A stretch of DNA of 64,000 bases. Source: Hydrogenophaga sp. (lineage in GTDB: Bacteria > Pseudomonadota > Gammaproteobacteria > Burkholderiales > Burkholderiaceae_C). The stretch spans positions 62,001 through 126,000 of the forward strand of contig JAABQK010000003.1 of the NCBI GenBank assembly GCA_011391495.1, in the 5' to 3' direction. The notes beneath the pieces were generated by a model. It did not search any database. It was not told the origin of the DNA and saw nothing but the letters and a program-made list of their open reading frames with translations. Within the stretch, counting starts at the first letter, position 1; every line of letters starts with the position of its first letter. Positions 6,602 to 26,593 of the stretch are shown piece by piece. A program made the translations under genes and the position numbers.

Positions 6602-6808
6602 GGCAGTGGTCGTTTTGCGATGGTGTGGGTCCGGCCGGGCTGGTCGATATGTAACGGACTCACACAACGTTGCACATGGAGACATGCCCGGGCGGGACCT
6701 CTGGGGCGGAAATCGGCTTACCCTCAGGGTTCAATTGACAGCACGGATCGTGCCAGCCACCAGACCCTCAGCGCAGCGGCCCGGCGGCCGCGATCCCCTA
6801 TTTCAACG

Positions 6809-7957
6809 ATGGACCGATTCATGCCCAGTACCCCGTTTCAACCGCCGTTTTCCCTGCGCGCCAGCGCCCTGGTTTTCGCACTCACAGGCAGCCTGGCGGC
6901 TTGTGGTGGCGGCGGCTCTTCGGAGGCCGAGAGTATCGGAACCACGGTGGGCACCGAGACCACTGTCATCGCGGGGACGACCAGCGGACAGGTTCCCGTG
7001 CCGGCGGCGGGCCTCGCGGTCGACACCAGCCAGCCCGACCAGGTGGTGGGCTCGGGAACACCCGCCAGTTGCACTGGCCAGGCCGTGGTGGATGCGGTGG
7101 CACAGGGCGGCAAGATCCGGTTCAACTGTGGCCCAGACCCGGTCACCATCACCCTGGGCAGCACCGCCAAGGTGTTCAACAACCGCCCTGATGTGACGCT
7201 GGACGGCGGTGGCCTGATCACGCTGAGCGGTGGCGGCAGTGTTCGCATCCTGTACCAGAACACTTGCGACGCGGCCCAGGTGTGGACCACCGCGAATTGC
7301 GACAACCAGGAAACGCCCCGGCTCACGGTGCAGAACATGCGCTTTACCCAAGGCAACGCCACCGGCCAGTTGACCGATGGCGGTGGAGGTGGCGCGATCT
7401 TTGTGCGGGGCGGTCAGTTCAAGATCGTGAACAGCGTGTTCACCAACAACCTCTGCGACAGCACCGGACCCGACGTGGGTGGTGGTGCGGTGCGGGTGCT
7501 GAGCATGTTCCAGAACCGCCCGGTTTATGTGGTGCAAAGCACCTTTGGCGGCGGGTCGGGCCTGGGCAACCGCTGTTCCAACGGTGGTGCGCTGAGCAGC
7601 ATCGGCGTGTCTTACAGCATCTACAACAGCCTTCTTTCGCACAACGCAGCGCTGGGCAACGGCGCCAACCCGCAACGTGCCGGCACCCCCGGCGGCGGCA
7701 GCGGGGGCGCGATCTACAACGACGGGAACACCTTCAACTTGTCGGTCCACGGTAGCCAGGTGACCGACAACTCGGCGTCTGAAGGCGGTAGTGCGGTCTT
7801 TTTTGTGAGCAACGACCTCACCGGGCACATGACGCTGAGCGACTCGGTCTTTGTGCGCAACCCGGCCACGCGATTCGGCACCGACGGACTGCCAGGCTTT
7901 TTTGTCCTAGCTGCGCCGGGCCAGCCAGTGGTGACACGCACCACCATCTCGCATTGA
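6809..7957 (+). CDS. Secreted lipoprotein with right-handed beta-helix-like repeats
   Basis: Signal peptide plus lipobox (GSLAACGGGG), then NSVFTNNLC / AIYNDGNTFNLS / SDSVFVRNP beta-helix-type repeats; alternative start at 6821. Confidence 0.75.
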   Translation: MDRFMPSTPFQPPFSLRASALVFALTGSLAACGGGGSSEAESIGTTVGTETTVIAGTTSGQVPVPAAGLAVDTSQPDQVVGSGTPASCTGQAVVDAVAQGGKIRFNCGPDPVTITLGSTAKVFNNRPDVTLDGGGLITLSGGGSVRILYQNTCDAAQVWTTANCDNQETPRLTVQNMRFTQGNATGQLTDGGGGGAIFVRGGQFKIVNSVFTNNLCDSTGPDVGGGAVRVLSMFQNRPVYVVQSTFGGGSGLGNRCSNGGALSSIGVSYSIYNSLLSHNAALGNGANPQRAGTPGGGSGGAIYNDGNTFNLSVHGSQVTDNSASEGGSAVFFVSNDLTGHMTLSDSVFVRNPATRFGTDGLPGFFVLAAPGQPVVTRTTISH

Positions 7958-9301: not shown

Positions 9302-10987
9302 CTACACCGCGCTGACCTTGGCCAGCAGGCCATCCGGGCTGGGCGGCTTGTAAGCGCCCGGCAGGGAAACACCGCCAGCGGCGCGCCCCGTGTGGCTCTG
9401 TTCGCCCAGGCCGGCGTGGATCTCGGTCGTCCGGTAGCGCTCGCGCAGGTTCTGGGCGCGCTCATTGAGGGCTTCGTGATCGGCAATGCGCTCGGCGTAG
9501 CGGTGCAGCACCAGGTGGGCCGATTCGATGAGCTTGGCGTTGAGTGTCTGTTCGCCGTCCAGCAGCAGTTTCTCCACCGCACTTTGCGGGTTGCCCTTGA
9601 TGCTGAGCGTCATGGCCTGCTCGGTGAGCTTGAGGATCTGCGAGTGCGCGGCGCGGATGCGCTCGGCGAAATCCGGGCGCCCGACCGCTGCGCAGGCGAG
9701 CAGCTCGGTGAGTGCGCGGCTGGTGCAGAAGCGAAGGCCCATCGCGTCCACCGCGGCGTCCACTTCGTAGAGCTGGATCGAGCGCATGGCCAGCTGCGTC
9801 ATGAGCGCGAGCAGGTTGCAGGCCGACTCGAAGTCGAACTCGGGGTTGTGGATCGTCTTGGCCATTCTCCGGATGTCATCCAGCGCGCGCGCGGTCTGGT
9901 ATTCCTGGATCGCGACCAGGGTCTCGATCACTTCCAGCAGCCGCTGCGGGCGGCTGTTCTCCACGCTGCGCTCGCGCAGGTGGGCAAGTTGTTCGGTGCA
10001 GCGCAGCAGGCCGCGCTGGTCGTTGTTGGCCAGCCGCGCAAAAGCCAGCAAGACCAGGGCTTGAGGGTCGTAGAGCTTGGATTCCAGGCCGATGCGTGTG
10101 GCCCGGTCGAGCAACTCAATGCCTTCGCTGCGGTCACCGGCGTAGTAGGCCAGCATGCCGTGCTTGAGCAGGCGGTTGACCGACGACGGTGTGAGCTGGG
10201 TCGACATCCTGAAGGTGGACAGCGCGTTCTCGAAATTGCCCAGCTCGAACTGGGCGCGCCCCATCACATCGTAGGCGTCGGTGAAGCCGGGCTCGCTGTC
10301 GATCAGGCTTTCCAGGGTGGTGGTGGCGCGCTGTGGATAGCCGGCCTCCAGCTGGGCCCTGGCCACCCCCAGACGGGCCCAGGGCAGGGTCTTGGCTTCC
10401 ACCACCGCCTCGTAGAGTTTCTGGGCCTCTGCCAGATGGCCGCCCCGCAGCATCAGCTCGGCGCCGATGCGCGCCGCATACAGCCAGTAGGGCTGGCGCG
10501 ACTCGAAGTGCCGCTTGCACAGCTCGCCAGCGTGCTCGAAGTTCTCCTGCTCGATGGCCACGAAGATGCTCTTGAGTGCCTGCTTGCGGTCGCGTGCCTG
10601 GTAGATCCGCTCGGCCAGCCGGGCCGCCGTGTGCGGCTTGAGCAGGTAGGCGTCGAGGGCCGACTCGGCAGCTTCGGCCACCTTGCTGTAGGCCGCTTCG
10701 GCCGTGACCATGACGAACACCGTGTAGAACGGCAGCAGCTGGTTGCGGCGCAGGTCGTCCAGCAGATCCTGGCCCGAGATGTCCTCGCGCTCGAAGTACT
10801 GCTCGCAGATGACGATGTCGAAGCTGCCCATTTCGAGCCTGCGCCGCGCGTCGACCAGGCGCGGGCATTGCACCACGGTGCCGATGCCGAACTCGCGCAG
10901 CTGCATCACCAGAATGGAGCGCGATTGCGGATTGCCGTCGATCACCAGCGCACGGGCGTCGTGAAGGGCGGTGGGTTGGGCAAACAT
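9302..10987 (-). CDS. Response-regulator-like receiver domain fused to TPR-type repeats
   Basis: N-terminal receiver fold (ARALVIDGNPQSRSILVMQLREFG, FDIVICEQYF, FVMVTAEA, YLLKPHTAARL) and helical repeats. Confidence 0.85.
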   Translation of the reverse strand: MFAQPTALHDARALVIDGNPQSRSILVMQLREFGIGTVVQCPRLVDARRRLEMGSFDIVICEQYFEREDISGQDLLDDLRRNQLLPFYTVFVMVTAEAAYSKVAEAAESALDAYLLKPHTAARLAERIYQARDRKQALKSIFVAIEQENFEHAGELCKRHFESRQPYWLYAARIGAELMLRGGHLAEAQKLYEAVVEAKTLPWARLGVARAQLEAGYPQRATTTLESLIDSEPGFTDAYDVMGRAQFELGNFENALSTFRMSTQLTPSSVNRLLKHGMLAYYAGDRSEGIELLDRATRIGLESKLYDPQALVLLAFARLANNDQRGLLRCTEQLAHLRERSVENSRPQRLLEVIETLVAIQEYQTARALDDIRRMAKTIHNPEFDFESACNLLALMTQLAMRSIQLYEVDAAVDAMGLRFCTSRALTELLACAAVGRPDFAERIRAAHSQILKLTEQAMTLSIKGNPQSAVEKLLLDGEQTLNAKLIESAHLVLHRYAERIADHEALNERAQNLRERYRTTEIHAGLGEQSHTGRAAGGVSLPGAYKPPSPDGLLAKVSAV

Positions 10988-11960: not shown

Positions 11961-12437
11961 TTACCGGCTTTTCCAGAAATCGCGGTGCGGCGCCAGCAGC
12001 TCGGCGTTGAGTTCGGGCACCGGTCCCACCACCTCGATGGTCTTCTGCCCGCGCGCGATCACCTCGCGGCAAGGCAGTGACAAGGTGGGGTTTTCTTCGT
12101 GGGCGCCGGTGAGCGCGAGCAAGGCTTCTTCGCTCGCGCCATAGACGATGCGACCGATGTTCGCCCAGTAGACCGTGCCAGCACACATCGCGCAGGGCTC
12201 GAAGGTGGTGACCAGGGTGCAGCGCGCCAGGTAGTCACCAGGCCAGTTGTCCGCCGCGGTGCGCGCGAGCGTGGACTCGGCGTGGTTCACGGTGTCGATG
12301 TTGCCCTGCTCGGCCAGCACCGTCTCGCCATCGGGCGCGACCAGCAGCGCACCGAAAGGGTGGCGGCCCATGCCGGCGGCGCGGATGGCGACCTCGTTGG
12401 CATGGCGCAAATGGCGAAGGGCTTGTTCGTGATCCAT
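11961..12437 (-). CDS. Nucleoside/nucleobase deaminase family protein (CDA fold)
   Basis: NHAESTLA and TFEPCAMCAGTVYWANI zinc motifs. Confidence 0.88.
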   Translation of the reverse strand: MDHEQALRHLRHANEVAIRAAGMGRHPFGALLVAPDGETVLAEQGNIDTVNHAESTLARTAADNWPGDYLARCTLVTTFEPCAMCAGTVYWANIGRIVYGASEEALLALTGAHEENPTLSLPCREVIARGQKTIEVVGPVPELNAELLAPHRDFWKSR

Positions 12438-12562: not shown

Positions 12563-13324
12563 TCACTCTGCACGCCTGTGCGCCCAGCCCGTCGTGTGTT
12601 TCTCGACGAAGCTGAACAGCTCGTACATGGCCATGGCCATGGCGCCCACCACCAGCAGGCCGCTGAAAGCCAGGCCCATCTGCATGGAACTGCCAGCCGA
12701 GATCAGCAGGTAGCCGATGCCTTCGTTCGATGCCGTCATCTCCGACACCGTGGTGCCCACAAAAGCCAGCGTGATGGCGACCTTGAGCGAGCCGAAGAAG
12801 TAGGGCATGGAGCGCGGCAGGCCGACCTTGGTCAGCACGTCCCAGCGCCGGGCGCCGAGCACGCGCAGCACATCTTCCAGCTCAGGCTCCAGCGTGGCCA
12901 GACCGGTGGCGATGTTCACCATGATGGGGAAGAAGCTAATGAGAAAGGCGGTCAGGATGGCCGGGCCGACACCGATGCCGAACCACACCACCAGGATGGG
13001 GACGAAGGCCGCTTTCGGCAGCGCGTTGAACGCGGTCATGAGCGGGTACACCGCGGCGTAGGCCAGGCGCGAGCTGCCGATCAGGAAGCCCAGCAGCACG
13101 CCGACCACGATGGCGATGCCAAAGCCCGCCATCGTCACCCAGTAGGTGCGCCAGGCATGGCCGAGGATGGTGACCTTGTGCTCCAGCGTCTGTTCCCAGA
13201 TGCGCGAGGGGCTGGGGAAGATGAACTCCGAGACGCCGAAGCCGCTGGTGATCACCTCCCAGATCACGATGATCGCGATCAGCAGCAGCAGCGGAGACCA
13301 GCGCTCCATGTGTTTTTTGTTCAT
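12563..13324 (-). CDS. ABC transporter permease (nitrate/taurine/sulfonate-type family)
   Basis: MNKKHMERWSPLLLLIAIIVIWEVIT...; multiple TM segments, ALPKAAFVPILVVWFGIGVGPAILTAFLISFFPI. Confidence 0.92.
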   Translation of the reverse strand: MNKKHMERWSPLLLLIAIIVIWEVITSGFGVSEFIFPSPSRIWEQTLEHKVTILGHAWRTYWVTMAGFGIAIVVGVLLGFLIGSSRLAYAAVYPLMTAFNALPKAAFVPILVVWFGIGVGPAILTAFLISFFPIMVNIATGLATLEPELEDVLRVLGARRWDVLTKVGLPRSMPYFFGSLKVAITLAFVGTTVSEMTASNEGIGYLLISAGSSMQMGLAFSGLLVVGAMAMAMYELFSFVEKHTTGWAHRRAE

Positions 13325-13335
13325 GGTGTGGCGCC

Positions 13336-14175
13336 TTACTGGTTGATGGGTGTGCCGGCTTTGCGCATGGCACCAATGTGGCCTCTGAGCTCGTGCACGA
13401 TGTCGGTGAACTGCGGCGTGTAGGTCACTTCGAGGTCGCGCGTGCGCGGGATGTCGACCTCGCGCTTGACGACAAAGCGCCCCGGGCTCTTGCTCATGCA
13501 GTACACCGTGTCGGCGAGGAAGACACTCTCGCGCAGGTCGTGCGTGACCAGGATGACGTTGAAACGCTGCGCTTCCCACAGGTCGCGCAGCGTGCACCAG
13601 AGTTCTTCGCGGGTGAAGGCGTCGAGTGCGCCGAAGGGCTCGTCCAGCAGCAGCATCTTGGGCTCGTGGATCAGCGCGCGGCAGATGCTGGCGCGCTGCT
13701 GCATGCCGCCCGAAAGCTCCCAGGGAAACTTCTTTTCCATGCCACCCAGGCCGACGCTGGCCAGCAGTTTCTTCGCGCGTTCCTCGAACTCCTTGCGGCG
13801 GTCCTTGAACTGGCTGCGGAAGGGCTCCACGATCTCCAGTGGCAGCAGCACGTTGTCGAGCGTGGTGCGCCAGGGCAGCAGCGAGGGCGCCTGGAAGGCC
13901 ATGCCCGAGATCTTCAGCGGGCCGGTCACCGGCTGGCCGTCGATGGTGATCTTGCCCATGCTGGGCATCTTCAGCCCGGTCGTGAGCTTCATGAAGGTGG
14001 ACTTGCCGCAGCCCGAGGGGCCGACGATGGCGATGAACTCGCCCTTCTTCACCTGGAGGTTGATGTCCTCCACGGCGAAGAGGTTCTTGGCCAGCAGCTC
14101 CTCGTTGTAGGCGAGCCAGACCTGGTCGAAATCCACGAAGGGCTTGTCGGTGTCGGTGGTGATGGGGTCGGGCAT
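13336..14175 (-). CDS. ABC transporter ATP-binding protein
   Basis: GPSGCGKST Walker A, ELSGGMQQRASICRALIHEPKMLLLDEPFGALD. Confidence 0.96.
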   Translation of the reverse strand: MPDPITTDTDKPFVDFDQVWLAYNEELLAKNLFAVEDINLQVKKGEFIAIVGPSGCGKSTFMKLTTGLKMPSMGKITIDGQPVTGPLKISGMAFQAPSLLPWRTTLDNVLLPLEIVEPFRSQFKDRRKEFEERAKKLLASVGLGGMEKKFPWELSGGMQQRASICRALIHEPKMLLLDEPFGALDAFTREELWCTLRDLWEAQRFNVILVTHDLRESVFLADTVYCMSKSPGRFVVKREVDIPRTRDLEVTYTPQFTDIVHELRGHIGAMRKAGTPINQ

Positions 14176-14251: not shown

Positions 14252-15283
14252 CTATTTCTTCGCGGGTGGCAGCACGTTGAGTTCGGCCACGCTGGGCAGC
14301 ATGGAGCCGTTCCACACCAGCTTGGGGTCGATGCGGGTCTTGGTGCCGTAGGCATCGGACACCTGCGAGGCCATCAACGAGAGGCGGCCGGGGTTGACCT
14401 GGCCAAAGCCTTCCTTGCGGGCGTCGGGGCTGGCGACGACCGAATCGACCGCCAGCTGCAGGCGGCGTGTTTCCAGGGCCACGTTGATGATGCCGTCGCG
14501 CGCCTTGACGGTTTCGATGGCCGCCGCCGGGTTGGCCATCACCTCTTTCGCTCCCTTGGCGAACGCGCTCAGGAAGGCTTTCACCGCGGCCGGGTTGTCC
14601 TTGATCAGCTTGGGGCTGGCGATGATCACGTTGCCGTAGAGCTTCACCCCATGGTCGGCATAGGGCAGGATCACCACGTCCTCGGCCTTCACGCCGCGCG
14701 CTTCCAGGTTCAGCAGCGAGGTGAACGAGAAACCGGTGATGGCGTCGATGTCGCCACGCACCAGCATGGTTTCACGCAGTGGCGGGTCCATGGAAGTCCA
14801 GGCCACGTTGCTCACGGCGTTGGCTTTCTGGAAGATCGGAAAAGCCTTGCGGCCGGCGTCGAACACCGGGGCGCCGAGCTTCTTGCCACTGAGGTCGGCG
14901 GGCTTGGCGATGCCACTCTTCTTGAGCGCCAGCACGGCCGCGGGCGTATTGTTGTAGACCATCATCACGGCCACCGGCTTGTTGGGGGCGTCCGGGTTGT
15001 TGGCATGGAACTCCATCAGCGCGGCCATGTCGGCAAAGCCCATGTCGTAGGTGCCGGAAGCCACGCGGGTGACGGTACCGCCCGAGCCGTTGCCGGAGTC
15101 GATGGTCACGTCCAGGCCGGCGGCCTTGAAATACCCCTTGGCGGCCGGTTGCAGGAAGAGGGCGGCCGGGCCTTCGAAGCGCCAGTCGAGCTGGAACTTG
15201 ATGGCGGTCTGTGCATGGGCGCTGCCGAAGGCGGCAGCAGCGGCAAGGGCGGCGGTGGTCTTGAGGAAGTGGCGCTTGTTCAT
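14252..15283 (-). CDS. ABC transporter substrate-binding protein (NMT1/THI5-SsuA-like)
   Basis: Signal peptide MNKRHFLKTTAALAAAAAFGSAHAQ, then IKFQLDWRFEGPAALFLQPAAKGYFKAAGLDVTIDSGNGS. Confidence 0.92.
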   Translation of the reverse strand: MNKRHFLKTTAALAAAAAFGSAHAQTAIKFQLDWRFEGPAALFLQPAAKGYFKAAGLDVTIDSGNGSGGTVTRVASGTYDMGFADMAALMEFHANNPDAPNKPVAVMMVYNNTPAAVLALKKSGIAKPADLSGKKLGAPVFDAGRKAFPIFQKANAVSNVAWTSMDPPLRETMLVRGDIDAITGFSFTSLLNLEARGVKAEDVVILPYADHGVKLYGNVIIASPKLIKDNPAAVKAFLSAFAKGAKEVMANPAAAIETVKARDGIINVALETRRLQLAVDSVVASPDARKEGFGQVNPGRLSLMASQVSDAYGTKTRIDPKLVWNGSMLPSVAELNVLPPAKK

Positions 15284-15340
15284 GGGTTCTCCGTTGGAAA
15301 GCGGTTGGCGCGGGCCAGCGGCCGGTGCTCGGTCTTCCTC

Positions 15341-15356
15341 AGCAAAATCGGTGCCA
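15341..15356 (-). promoter_or_regulatory. Predicted sigma54 promoter of the ABC importer
   Basis: Minus strand TGGCACC-GATT-TTGCT versus TGGCACG-N4-TTGCW, 58 nt upstream of the SBP ATG. Confidence 0.75.
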
Positions 15357-15383
15357 GGAAGGGTGGGTGCGGTCGCCGTGAAC

Positions 15384-15404
15384 ACAGAATGTGTATACAG
15401 ATTT
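15384..15404 (-). promoter_or_regulatory. GTGTATACA-type operator (site A)
   Basis: Contains GTGTATACAG; minus strand CTGTATACACATTCTGTGTTC. Confidence 0.65.
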
Positions 15405-15437
15405 TTGGCGGGAGCGGCCCATTGCGTCATCCGGAGC

Positions 15438-15454
15438 AACCCTGTATTGGTGCA
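15438..15454 (-). promoter_or_regulatory. Possible NtrC-type site 1 upstream of ABC SBP
   Basis: AACCCT-GTATT-GGTGCA, perfect right half-site. Confidence 0.45.
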
Positions 15455-15468
15455 TTCGATCGACGGGC

Positions 15469-15485
15469 TGCACCAAACATGATGT
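15469..15485 (-). promoter_or_regulatory. Possible NtrC-type site 2 upstream of ABC SBP
   Basis: TGCACC-AAACA-TGATGT, perfect left half-site; about 31 bp from site 1. Confidence 0.45.
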
Positions 15486-15494
15486 CGGCGCGCA

Positions 15495-15520
15495 CAAAAA
15501 TGGGCCCCGAGGGGCCCATT
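15495..15520 (-). terminator. Terminator downstream of NCS2 permease
   Basis: Minus strand AATGGGCCCCTCGGGGCCCATTTTTG hairpin plus T-run. Confidence 0.65.
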
Positions 15521-15542
15521 CTCTGGTGTGGCGTCTGCACGC

Positions 15543-17030
15543 TCAGTGTGCTTCGGCCTGTCTGGCGGCCGCGATGGCGGCGCGGTCGTCGGCCTGGCTG
15601 CCGTTGAAGAACAGGTTCAGCAGCACGGCGGCAATGGACGCCAGCAGGATGCCCGACTCGATCAGCGGGTGGATGCCGTGGGGCATCCACTGTTTGAAGT
15701 TGGGTGCGATCAGCGGGATCATGCCGACGCCGATGGAGATCGCCACGATCATCGCGTTGAAGCGGTTGCTCTTGAAGTCGACGCCGGCCAGGATGCGGAT
15801 GCCGGTGGCCGCCACCATGCCGAACATCACCAGACCGGCGCCGCCGAGCACCACGGTGGGCAGCGATTCGACCAGCGCCGCCATCTTGGGCAGCAGGCCC
15901 AGCACGACCAGGATCACGCCACCGGCCACGCAGACGAAGCGGCTCTTGACGCCGGTGACGGCGACCAGCCCCACGTTCTGCGAGAAGCTGGTGTAGGGGA
16001 AGGTGTTGAAGATGCCGCCGATCAGCGTGCCCAGGCCGTCGGTGCGCAGGCCCCGCGTGAGCGCGGCGCGGTTCACCTGGCGGTCGGTCATCTCGCCCAG
16101 CGCGAGGAACATGCCGGTGGACTCGATCATCACGACGATCATCACCAGCGTCATGGTGAGGATGAGGATGGGGTTGAACACCGGCGCGGCGATCTCGAAC
16201 GGCAGCACGATGTCGACCCAGTGGGCCTTGGCGACCTTGTCGAAGTTCATCAGGCCCATGGCCGCAGCGGCGACGCCACCGATGACGATGCCCAGCAGCA
16301 CCGAGATGTTGGCCAGGAAGCCCTTGGCGTAACGGGCGATCAGCATGATGGACACCAGCACCAGTGCGGCGATGCCCACACCGGTGAGGTCCGCGTATTT
16401 GGGGTTGGGCAGCTTGGGCACCAGGGCCAGATCCTTCGGGATTGCGGGCAACAGCGAGCCGGGCGCACCCGCGGTGGCGGTCACCTGGGCCAGCCACTGG
16501 GCGTGCTCCGGGTTGACGATGGCAGGTGCCGTGGGGCCGACCGGGTTGCCGAAGATCCAGTTGATGCCCACCCGCATGAGGCTGATGCCGATGACCAGGA
16601 TGATCGAACCCGTGACCACCGGCGGGAAGAATCGCAGCATGCGGCTGACCAGCGGTGCGATCAGGATCGAGATGACGCCCGCACCGATGATGGCGCCGAA
16701 GATCAGGCCTGCGCCCTCGGTGCCCGGGTTGCTGTTGGCCATGGCCACCATGGGCGCGACGGAGGCAAACGTCACGCCCATCATCACCGGCAGCTTGATG
16801 CCGAACCACTGTGTGGCGCCGAGCGACTGGATCAGCGTGACGATGCCGCAGCAGAACAGATCGGCCGAGATCAGCATGGCCACCTGCTCGGGGCTGAGCT
16901 TGAGGGCGCGGCCGACGATCAGCGGCACGGCGACCGCGCCGGCGTACATCACCAGCACGTGCTGCAGGCCCAGGGCCGTGAGCTTGCCGGCGGGCAGGAC
17001 CTCATCCACTGGATGAACCGTTGTTGTCAT
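15543..17030 (-). CDS. NCS2 family nucleobase:cation symporter (uracil/xanthine/urate permease)
   Basis: LGLQHVLVMYAGAVAVPLIVGRAL, QSLGATQWFGIKLPVMMGVTFASVAPMVA, NTFPYTSFSQNVGLVAVTGVKSR. Confidence 0.95.
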   Translation of the reverse strand: MTTTVHPVDEVLPAGKLTALGLQHVLVMYAGAVAVPLIVGRALKLSPEQVAMLISADLFCCGIVTLIQSLGATQWFGIKLPVMMGVTFASVAPMVAMANSNPGTEGAGLIFGAIIGAGVISILIAPLVSRMLRFFPPVVTGSIILVIGISLMRVGINWIFGNPVGPTAPAIVNPEHAQWLAQVTATAGAPGSLLPAIPKDLALVPKLPNPKYADLTGVGIAALVLVSIMLIARYAKGFLANISVLLGIVIGGVAAAAMGLMNFDKVAKAHWVDIVLPFEIAAPVFNPILILTMTLVMIVVMIESTGMFLALGEMTDRQVNRAALTRGLRTDGLGTLIGGIFNTFPYTSFSQNVGLVAVTGVKSRFVCVAGGVILVVLGLLPKMAALVESLPTVVLGGAGLVMFGMVAATGIRILAGVDFKSNRFNAMIVAISIGVGMIPLIAPNFKQWMPHGIHPLIESGILLASIAAVLLNLFFNGSQADDRAAIAAARQAEAH

Positions 17031-17099: not shown

Positions 17100-17120
17100 C
17101 TGTATACACATTATGTGTAC
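17100..17120. promoter_or_regulatory. TGTATACA-type operator (site B) upstream of NCS2 permease
   Basis: CTGTATACACATTATGTGTAC; overlaps perfect palindrome TACACATTATGTGTA. Confidence 0.65.
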
Positions 17121-17185
17121 CGATGAATGCCGATCCGACAGGGAAAACCCTGAGGGGGAGGGATCATCCGCCCGGCGGCAGACCG

Positions 17186-23799: not shown

Positions 23800-24465
23800 C
23801 TAGGAGAGCGCCAGCGACAGGTCGTTGGTCGGCAACTTGCGGTCGAAGGTCAGGCCCTCCTCCACATGTTGCAGGTGATCGTTCATGAGGCGCACCGCCA
23901 GTTCCTCGTCCTTGGCGGCCAGCGCCTTGACGATGGCCACGTGTTCCTCGTTGGAGTGTTCGGCCGCGTTGGTGCTCTGGTACATGAGCGTGATCAGCGC
24001 GCAGCGCGAGATGAGCTCGCGCAGCAGCTCGGCCAGCACCTGGTTGCCCATGAGCTCGGCCATGCGCACATGAAAGTCGCCCAGCAGTTCGGTGCGGCCG
24101 GGCACGTCCTGGTTGTCCACAGCCTGCTTTTCCTGCGCCACGTGTTCGCGCAGAGCCTTGATCTTGCTTGGGGTGACCTGGCGCACGAAGGCGCGGGTCA
24201 TCTCGGCCTCGAGCATGCGGCGCACGGCAAACACCTGCTTGGCCTCGTCCACCGAAGGCGCGGCCACGAAGGCGCCGCGCGCAGGCTCCAGCCGGATCAG
24301 GCGGTTCTGCGACAACTGGAACAGCGCCTGGCGCACCAGCGTGCGAGAAACGCCGAAATGGTCGGCCAGTTTCTGTTCGGCCAGCTTGGTCCCGGGATGC
24401 AGCCGGTGCTCCACGATGGCTTTGGTGAGGGACTCGACGATCTGGCTGGTGCTGGAGGTTTCCAT
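23800..24465 (-). CDS. GntR family regulator, FadR/FCD type
   Basis: wHTH ALTKAIVEHRLHPGTKLAEQKLADHFGVSRTLVRQALFQL-like N-terminus and FCD-like C-terminus. Confidence 0.93.
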   Translation of the reverse strand: METSSTSQIVESLTKAIVEHRLHPGTKLAEQKLADHFGVSRTLVRQALFQLSQNRLIRLEPARGAFVAAPSVDEAKQVFAVRRMLEAEMTRAFVRQVTPSKIKALREHVAQEKQAVDNQDVPGRTELLGDFHVRMAELMGNQVLAELLRELISRCALITLMYQSTNAAEHSNEEHVAIVKALAAKDEELAVRLMNDHLQHVEEGLTFDRKLPTNDLSLALS

Positions 24466-24490: not shown

Positions 24491-24506
24491 AAAGTGTATA
24501 CACTTT
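24491..24506. promoter_or_regulatory. GntR operator candidate (site C), gntR-hiuH intergenic region
   Basis: Perfect 16-bp palindrome AAAGTGTATACACTTT. Confidence 0.75.
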
Positions 24507-26532: not shown

Positions 26533-26577
26533 GGGACATCCGGTTGCCCGGGTTCGTCCCGGGTTGAATGTTTTCAA

Positions 26578-26593
26578 AAAGTGTATACACTTT
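26578..26593. promoter_or_regulatory. GntR operator candidate (site D) upstream of puuD
   Basis: Perfect 16-bp palindrome AAAGTGTATACACTTT identical to site C. Confidence 0.75.

Follow-up and report, generated by a model that had tools for sequence, protein, structure and literature searches.

In Escherichia coli, glnA has two promoters: a sigma70 promoter, glnAp1, which lies upstream within the enhancer region and is controlled by CRP and NtrC, and an NtrC/sigma54 promoter, glnAp2, downstream of it. The NtrC tandem there contains glnAp1, and ArgR at astC is described as another regulator present at an NtrC/sigma54 enhancer (PMC4740811). In Pseudomonas, HutC, a GntR-family repressor that recognizes TGTA-N2-TACA, is found at a sigma54 promoter under nitrogen control, with a footprint that overlaps that promoter's sigma54 site (PMC12977541). 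NtrC and sigma54 are already known to control purine and urea use in Burkholderia cenocepacia H111, where xanthine dehydrogenase, a urate oxidase cluster, allantoicase and urease depend on them (PMC5491218). Here we analyze the promoter region of a purine/ureide-related ATP-binding cassette (ABC) importer in Hydrogenophaga, located in a 64,000-nt window (the whole stretch of DNA analyzed) that is part of a 3.23 Mb draft genome. The region separates pbuX, a xanthine permease gene (minus strand, start codon at 17027), from the gene for the importer's substrate-binding protein. Neither this importer nor a local GntR layer is named in the H111 account as excerpted (PMC5491218), and a proteobacterial regulon survey that treats NtrC and several GntR regulators makes, in its excerpted text, no mention of the importer or of the local GntR/FCD regulator (PMC5343134). 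Our literature searches found no report of this Hydrogenophaga importer promoter in the collection of papers that they covered.

The explanation that we favor, with moderate confidence and from comparison of sequences, is a pair of tandem promoters with three inputs, in which a GntR-repressed promoter of sigma70 type (P1) would be nested upstream of an NtrC/sigma54 promoter (P2). The elements concerned are as follows.

15341-15356, minus strand: sigma54 -24/-12 element TGGCACCGATTTTGCT of P2, with a predicted start near 15330.
15379-15386, minus strand: second, degenerate GntR box TGTGTTCA, 5 bp downstream of the operator core.
15392-15399: GntR operator core TGTATACA, within GTGTATACAG at 15391-15400 and within the extended palindrome AAT-N-TGTATACA-N-ATT.
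15401-15406, minus strand: -10-like hexamer AAAAAT of the putative P1, with a predicted start at about 15393-15394, inside the operator.
15425-15430, minus strand: -35-like hexamer ATGACG of the putative P1, 18 bp from the -10-like hexamer.
15438-15443, minus strand: AGGGTT box (AACCCT on the plus strand), 42-43 bp from the operator, a candidate site of a third regulator.
15438-15454: proximal NtrC-like site AACCCTGTATTGGTGCA, with its strong half TGGTGCA at 15448-15454 and a weak half that overlaps the AGGGTT box.
15469-15485: distal NtrC-like site TGCACCAAACATGATGT, with its strong half TGCACCA at 15469-15475 and a degenerate other half.

As we infer its working and expression behavior, P2 would respond to nitrogen shortage through phosphorylated NtrC, which would occupy sites about 105-160 bp upstream and turn the promoter on. 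P1 would lie between the NtrC sites and P2, with the GntR operator covering its -10 and start, and thus would be off until a metabolite of the purine pathway frees GntR from the DNA. A third regulator, probably an activator, would bind the AGGGTT box just upstream of the P1 -35 region; this box is common to the permease promoter and, in part, to the urate oxidase promoter. Such a region would be a conserved and tangible example of nitrogen status and substrate availability converging on one regulatory region. Comparison of orthologs shows, as sequence features, the sigma54 site, the enrichment of NtrC half-sites, the operator regulon and the locked unit of AGGGTT box, -10-like hexamer and operator.

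Like hut of Pseudomonas (HutC; sigma54; NtrC/CbrB), the locus would combine a local GntR-family repressor and its TGTA-N2-TACA operator with a sigma54 promoter under nitrogen control in a nitrogen catabolic unit (PMC12977541). Unlike at hut, the operator in the window does not overlap the sigma54 site: 35 bp separate its core from the -24 element downstream, and it keeps a fixed spacing to the -10-like hexamer and the AGGGTT box. The ligand domains also differ, being FCD in the Hydrogenophaga regulator and a different one in HutC. The predicted order of a sigma70-type promoter upstream, within the enhancer region, and an NtrC/sigma54 promoter downstream resembles glnAp1/glnAp2, but where glnAp1 has CRP and NtrC, the putative P1 carries the GntR operator and the AGGGTT box. 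In a glnA-like tandem, 16-18 bp would be expected between -35 and -10 hexamers that precede the sigma54 site; such hexamers are conserved at the genus level, and in the window they are weak and below the scan threshold.

The sigma54 element, the operator and both NtrC-like sites, read directly from the sequence, lie exactly where an initial annotation of this DNA had placed them. The minus-strand TGGCACC-GATT-TTGCT at 15341-15356 matches 11 of the 12 positions of TGGCACG-N4-TTGCW and is the single exact occurrence of TGGCAC-N5-TTGCW in the window, with nine in the 3.23 Mb genome. With one mismatch this pattern occurs at chance frequency (4 seen and 3.86 expected in the window), so the assignment relies on the exact match and on conservation. 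Footprinting covered about 150 orthologous promoters overall, with a family set of 100 orthologous loci, mostly one or two genomes per genus (101 promoters in the sigma54 count), a close-relative set (Hydrogenophaga and the genera nearest to it) of 48 promoters, and 32 non-redundant close relatives used for alignment on the operator. Among GG-N10-GC sites no more than 250 bp from the start codon, the top-scoring one reached at least 9/12 in 85 of 101 family promoters but in 5.8% of shuffled sequences, and all 48 close relatives had a site of at least 10/12. A matrix derived from orthologs, from which this genus (the window and its congener L032) had been excluded, ranked 15341-15356 first of 127,966 window positions at 25.6 bits, about 12 bits above the runner-up (13.5). 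RpoN is encoded in the same genome. Orthologs outside the family were found in only three of the genomes sampled, where sigma54 sites were weak or absent. The sequence evidence thus agrees with the initial annotation that this is a sigma54 promoter, which we consider almost certain. As a separate observation, an exact sigma54 core at L145:1501-1516, among the nine in the genome, precedes ntrC by a few hundred bases.

The operator forms a small regulon. TGTATACA occurs four times in the window, where 0.06 are expected, and six times in the whole genome, so that four of the six copies sit in the purine cluster. Besides the importer site, these and the candidate regulator gene are located as follows.

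17101-17108: second GntR operator, in the pbuX promoter.
23800-24465, minus strand: gntR, the GntR/FCD regulator gene.
24495-24502: third GntR operator, between gntR and the hydroxyisourate hydrolase gene.
26582-26589: fourth GntR operator, before the membrane urate oxidase gene puuD.

Exact TGTATACA is present in 23 of 100 family importer promoters (0.02% of shuffles) and in 46 of 48 close relatives. The degenerate second box TGTGTTCA stands 4-5 bp from the core in many relatives, and the composite of core and second box was found in 12 of 101 family promoters against 0.06% of shuffles. In 19 of 20 gntR orthologs the gene is preceded by the operator, as AAAGTGTATACACTTT or a near variant; the twentieth locus is cut. 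These counts make it highly likely that TGTATACA is a real GntR operator and support the prediction, made in the initial annotation, that the local GntR protein binds it, thereby defining a purine/ureide regulon in Hydrogenophaga whose operator can be assigned to a GntR protein. The only two genomic copies outside the cluster are L149:1501-1508 and L154:1501-1508, the former beside the start of another GntR-like gene.

What is new in Hydrogenophaga, as far as aligned sequences indicate, is the fixed spacing that the operator keeps to both the -10-like hexamer and the AGGGTT box. When the 32 non-redundant relatives were aligned on the operator, the sequence directly upstream of it read xAxAAT, with the fixed positions kept in 29, 29, 28 and 30 promoters (A.AAT at operator positions -6 to -2). 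Proceeding upstream from this hexamer, 17-18 mostly unconserved bases are followed by [AT]TGAC and then by AGGGTT. The [AT]TGAC motif is kept at the -35 offset in most relatives, as TTGACG or TTGACA in loci L220, L223 and L216, and 38 importer promoters have AGGGTT at 42-43 bp from the operator despite the variable distance between operator and sigma54 site. A search of the window for AGGGTT with TGTATACA 30-42 bases further on picks out exactly two transporter promoters, those of the importer and pbuX, where none is expected. The pbuX promoter in the window (AGGGTT box at 17146-17151, CATAAT at 17110-17115) has no sigma54 site. Among congeners, 16 of 17 pbuX promoters have GGGTT 41-43 bp from the operator, and CATAAT or CATAAA stands at the offset of the importer's -10-like hexamer. 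Since the operator keeps its spacing to the -10-like hexamer and AGGGTT and not to the sigma54 site, and since pbuX is built alike without one, we infer a nested, GntR-repressed promoter of sigma70 type. That P1 is a real sigma70 promoter seems somewhat probable, and that the AGGGTT box is functional, likely; the box suggests a third regulator of purine use.

The pbuX promoter as a whole (17101-17151) comprises a AGGGTTTTCCCTG box, CATAAT and a tandem GntR operator GTACACATAATGTGTATACA, and is kept in nearly all congeners examined; compared with the importer, its second box GTACACA is on the opposite side of the core relative to transcription. In puuD promoters, GGGTT was found 31-33 bp from the operator in 16 of 29. 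In the window, two GGGTT boxes precede the operator of the puuD promoter (26550-26589), at 32 and 21 bp, and are nearer to it by one and two helical turns than the boxes of the transporter promoters; a TTGA-N6-TCAA-like element, also conserved in congeners, adjoins the operator. A dyad AGGG-N3/4-CCCT was also considered as the general form of the third box and was not enriched in the wider family (20 seen, 16.1 expected), and the claim is therefore limited to an AGGGT box in Hydrogenophaga and near genera.

The same spacing data bear on the second-best explanation, which was that of the initial annotation: a single AND-gated sigma54 promoter, at which GntR bound about 65 bp upstream of the start, midway between NtrC and polymerase, would block looping or activator contact until a purine signal arrives. 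The order of NtrC half-sites, operator and sigma54 promoter does hold in nearly all operator-bearing family promoters. It is also the order of synthetic quenching enhancers (NtrC sites, foreign operator, glnAp2), in which a protein bound in the interval from the NtrC sites to the sigma54 promoter quenches activation; nac and glnAp2 are given there as examples from nature (PMC4740811). The quenching model is sensitive to helical phase, however, and the operator shows no phasing to the sigma54 site (Rayleigh p about 0.84, n = 15); the distance between the two varies from 37 to 79 bp within the genus and its neighbors. The operator is instead locked to the upstream elements and appears to serve a promoter of its own, as at pbuX, so that its role as an element interposed between enhancers and sigma54 promoter is not borne out by the spacing, and we regard a single AND gate as doubtful. 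A broader proposal seems unlikely: one GntR binding event would both silence P1 and quench NtrC looping to P2, the third regulator would sit at AGGGTT boxes that keep helical register with the GntR operators at three purine promoters, and the region would be a natural bacterial enhancer in which the stretch from the NtrC sites to the sigma54 promoter houses a local repressor's operator together with a sigma70-type promoter of its own. The natural variation in operator-sigma54 distance among close relatives could be used to test how a protein interposed between enhancer and promoter affects looping.

The activator of P2 is probably NtrC, to judge from family-wide sequence patterns. Apart from the operator, GCACCA is the most enriched word upstream of sigma54 sites (57 of 90, against 14 expected). 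Across the family, NtrC-type halves show strong enrichment at 80-180 bp upstream, with a density peak at -130 to -80 and a fall towards background beyond -180, and when sequences were anchored on strong halves, partner bases appeared at the canonical NtrC spacing. Because the AGGGTT box could supply part of this partner-base signal, strict core dyads were also counted: GCACC-N5-GGTG or its mirror occurs in 14 of 83 promoters (window and L032 excluded), against 0.3 expected. As a positive control, several family glnK promoters pair sigma54 sites with TGCACC-N5-GGTGCA-like dyads, for example TGCACCTTGGTGGTGCA, and other Hydrogenophaga have near-complete dyads at the distal position, such as ATCACCGTGGTGGTGCA and AGCACCCTTTCGGTGCA. 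NtrC is encoded in the same genome, above the curated TIGR01818 cut-off. In the window itself, each of the two dyads contains one perfect 7-bp NtrC half (TGGTGCA and TGCACCA), an occurrence with P = 0.002 in shuffles of the region, and their centers are 31 bp apart.

Several points weigh against the tandem reading with NtrC at P2. A sigma70 consensus scan found no promoter at P1, which is visible by footprinting only, and its hexamers in the window match at 4/6 and 4/6. Some of the "-10" may belong to the operator, because the AAT that flanks the operator is palindromic with an ATT on its opposite side. The pbuX promoter shows no visible -35 at the P1 spacing. The -10-like hexamer and the AGGGTT box fade beyond Hydrogenophaga and its nearest genera, and spacing conserved within one genus partly reflects shared ancestry, congeners not being independent. 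The NtrC dyads of the window are degenerate. Neither 17-mer is within three mismatches of TGCACC-N5-GGTGCA, and a consensus scan at that level misses both; such matches are themselves at chance level in the window (74 seen, 68.5 expected), and the 17-mers therefore cannot be called complete NtrC sites from the window sequence alone. In matrix scoring, the proximal site reached 16.2 bits (P = 0.0007), a value inflated by the contribution of the AGGGTT box, and the distal site 8.0 bits (P = 0.019). The AACCCT that the initial annotation read as the other half of the proximal site is, when read on the minus strand, the conserved AGGGTT box. The degeneracy of the dyads in the window, together with several further NtrC-like activators in the genome, would suit an enhancer-binding protein other than NtrC at the upstream half-sites, but partner bases at the canonical NtrC spacing family-wide and the same dyad at glnK promoters make this improbable.

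GntR might instead be positive or neutral at the sigma54 promoter, as ArgR is at astC, with AGGGTT as an extra co-activator site. Some FCD-type regulators are able to activate. An operator that adjoins the -10-like hexamer at two transporter promoters, and that also precedes gntR, fits repression better, so we give a positive or neutral GntR little credence. Chance motifs without function would be consistent with the chance frequency in the window of the one-mismatch sigma54 and three-mismatch NtrC patterns, but the conservation across orthologous promoters already refutes chance for the sigma54 site and the operator and leaves this explanation scarcely credible. With its motifs clearly conserved in orthologous loci, and its view of the operator changed, the interpretation of the initial annotation is partly supported overall.

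Downstream of P2, the importer unit consists of the following genes.

14252-15283, minus strand, start codon at 15283: substrate-binding protein, NMT1/THI5-like, with a twin-arginine translocation (TAT) signal; first gene of the unit.
13336-14175, minus strand: ABC ATPase of NitT/TauT type.
12563-13324, minus strand: ABC permease.
11961-12437, minus strand: cytidine/guanine deaminase-like protein, likely in the unit.

Of 100 orthologous loci, 29 have a deaminase-like gene close to the importer, and many family members keep the importer and purine-degradation genes together. In the window, the surrounding genes, some of them named from their translations, include those for degradation (membrane urate oxidase, hydroxyisourate hydrolase, the allantoinase PuuE and a ureido-decarboxylase/allantoate amidohydrolase fusion) as well as XdhC, the GntR/FCD regulator and urease genes. 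At about 15495-15521, a palindrome ATGGGCCCC-GA-GGGGCCCAT followed by a minus-strand T run, read by eye and not listed by the scan, looks like the terminator of pbuX. Within the urease region, a plus-strand frame resembling a secreted repeat protein (6800-7957) lies between the minus-strand genes for the urease beta and alpha subunits, and the urease operon therefore seems interrupted. The same region contains a CheY-like receiver fused to tetratricopeptide (TPR) repeats at 9302-10987.
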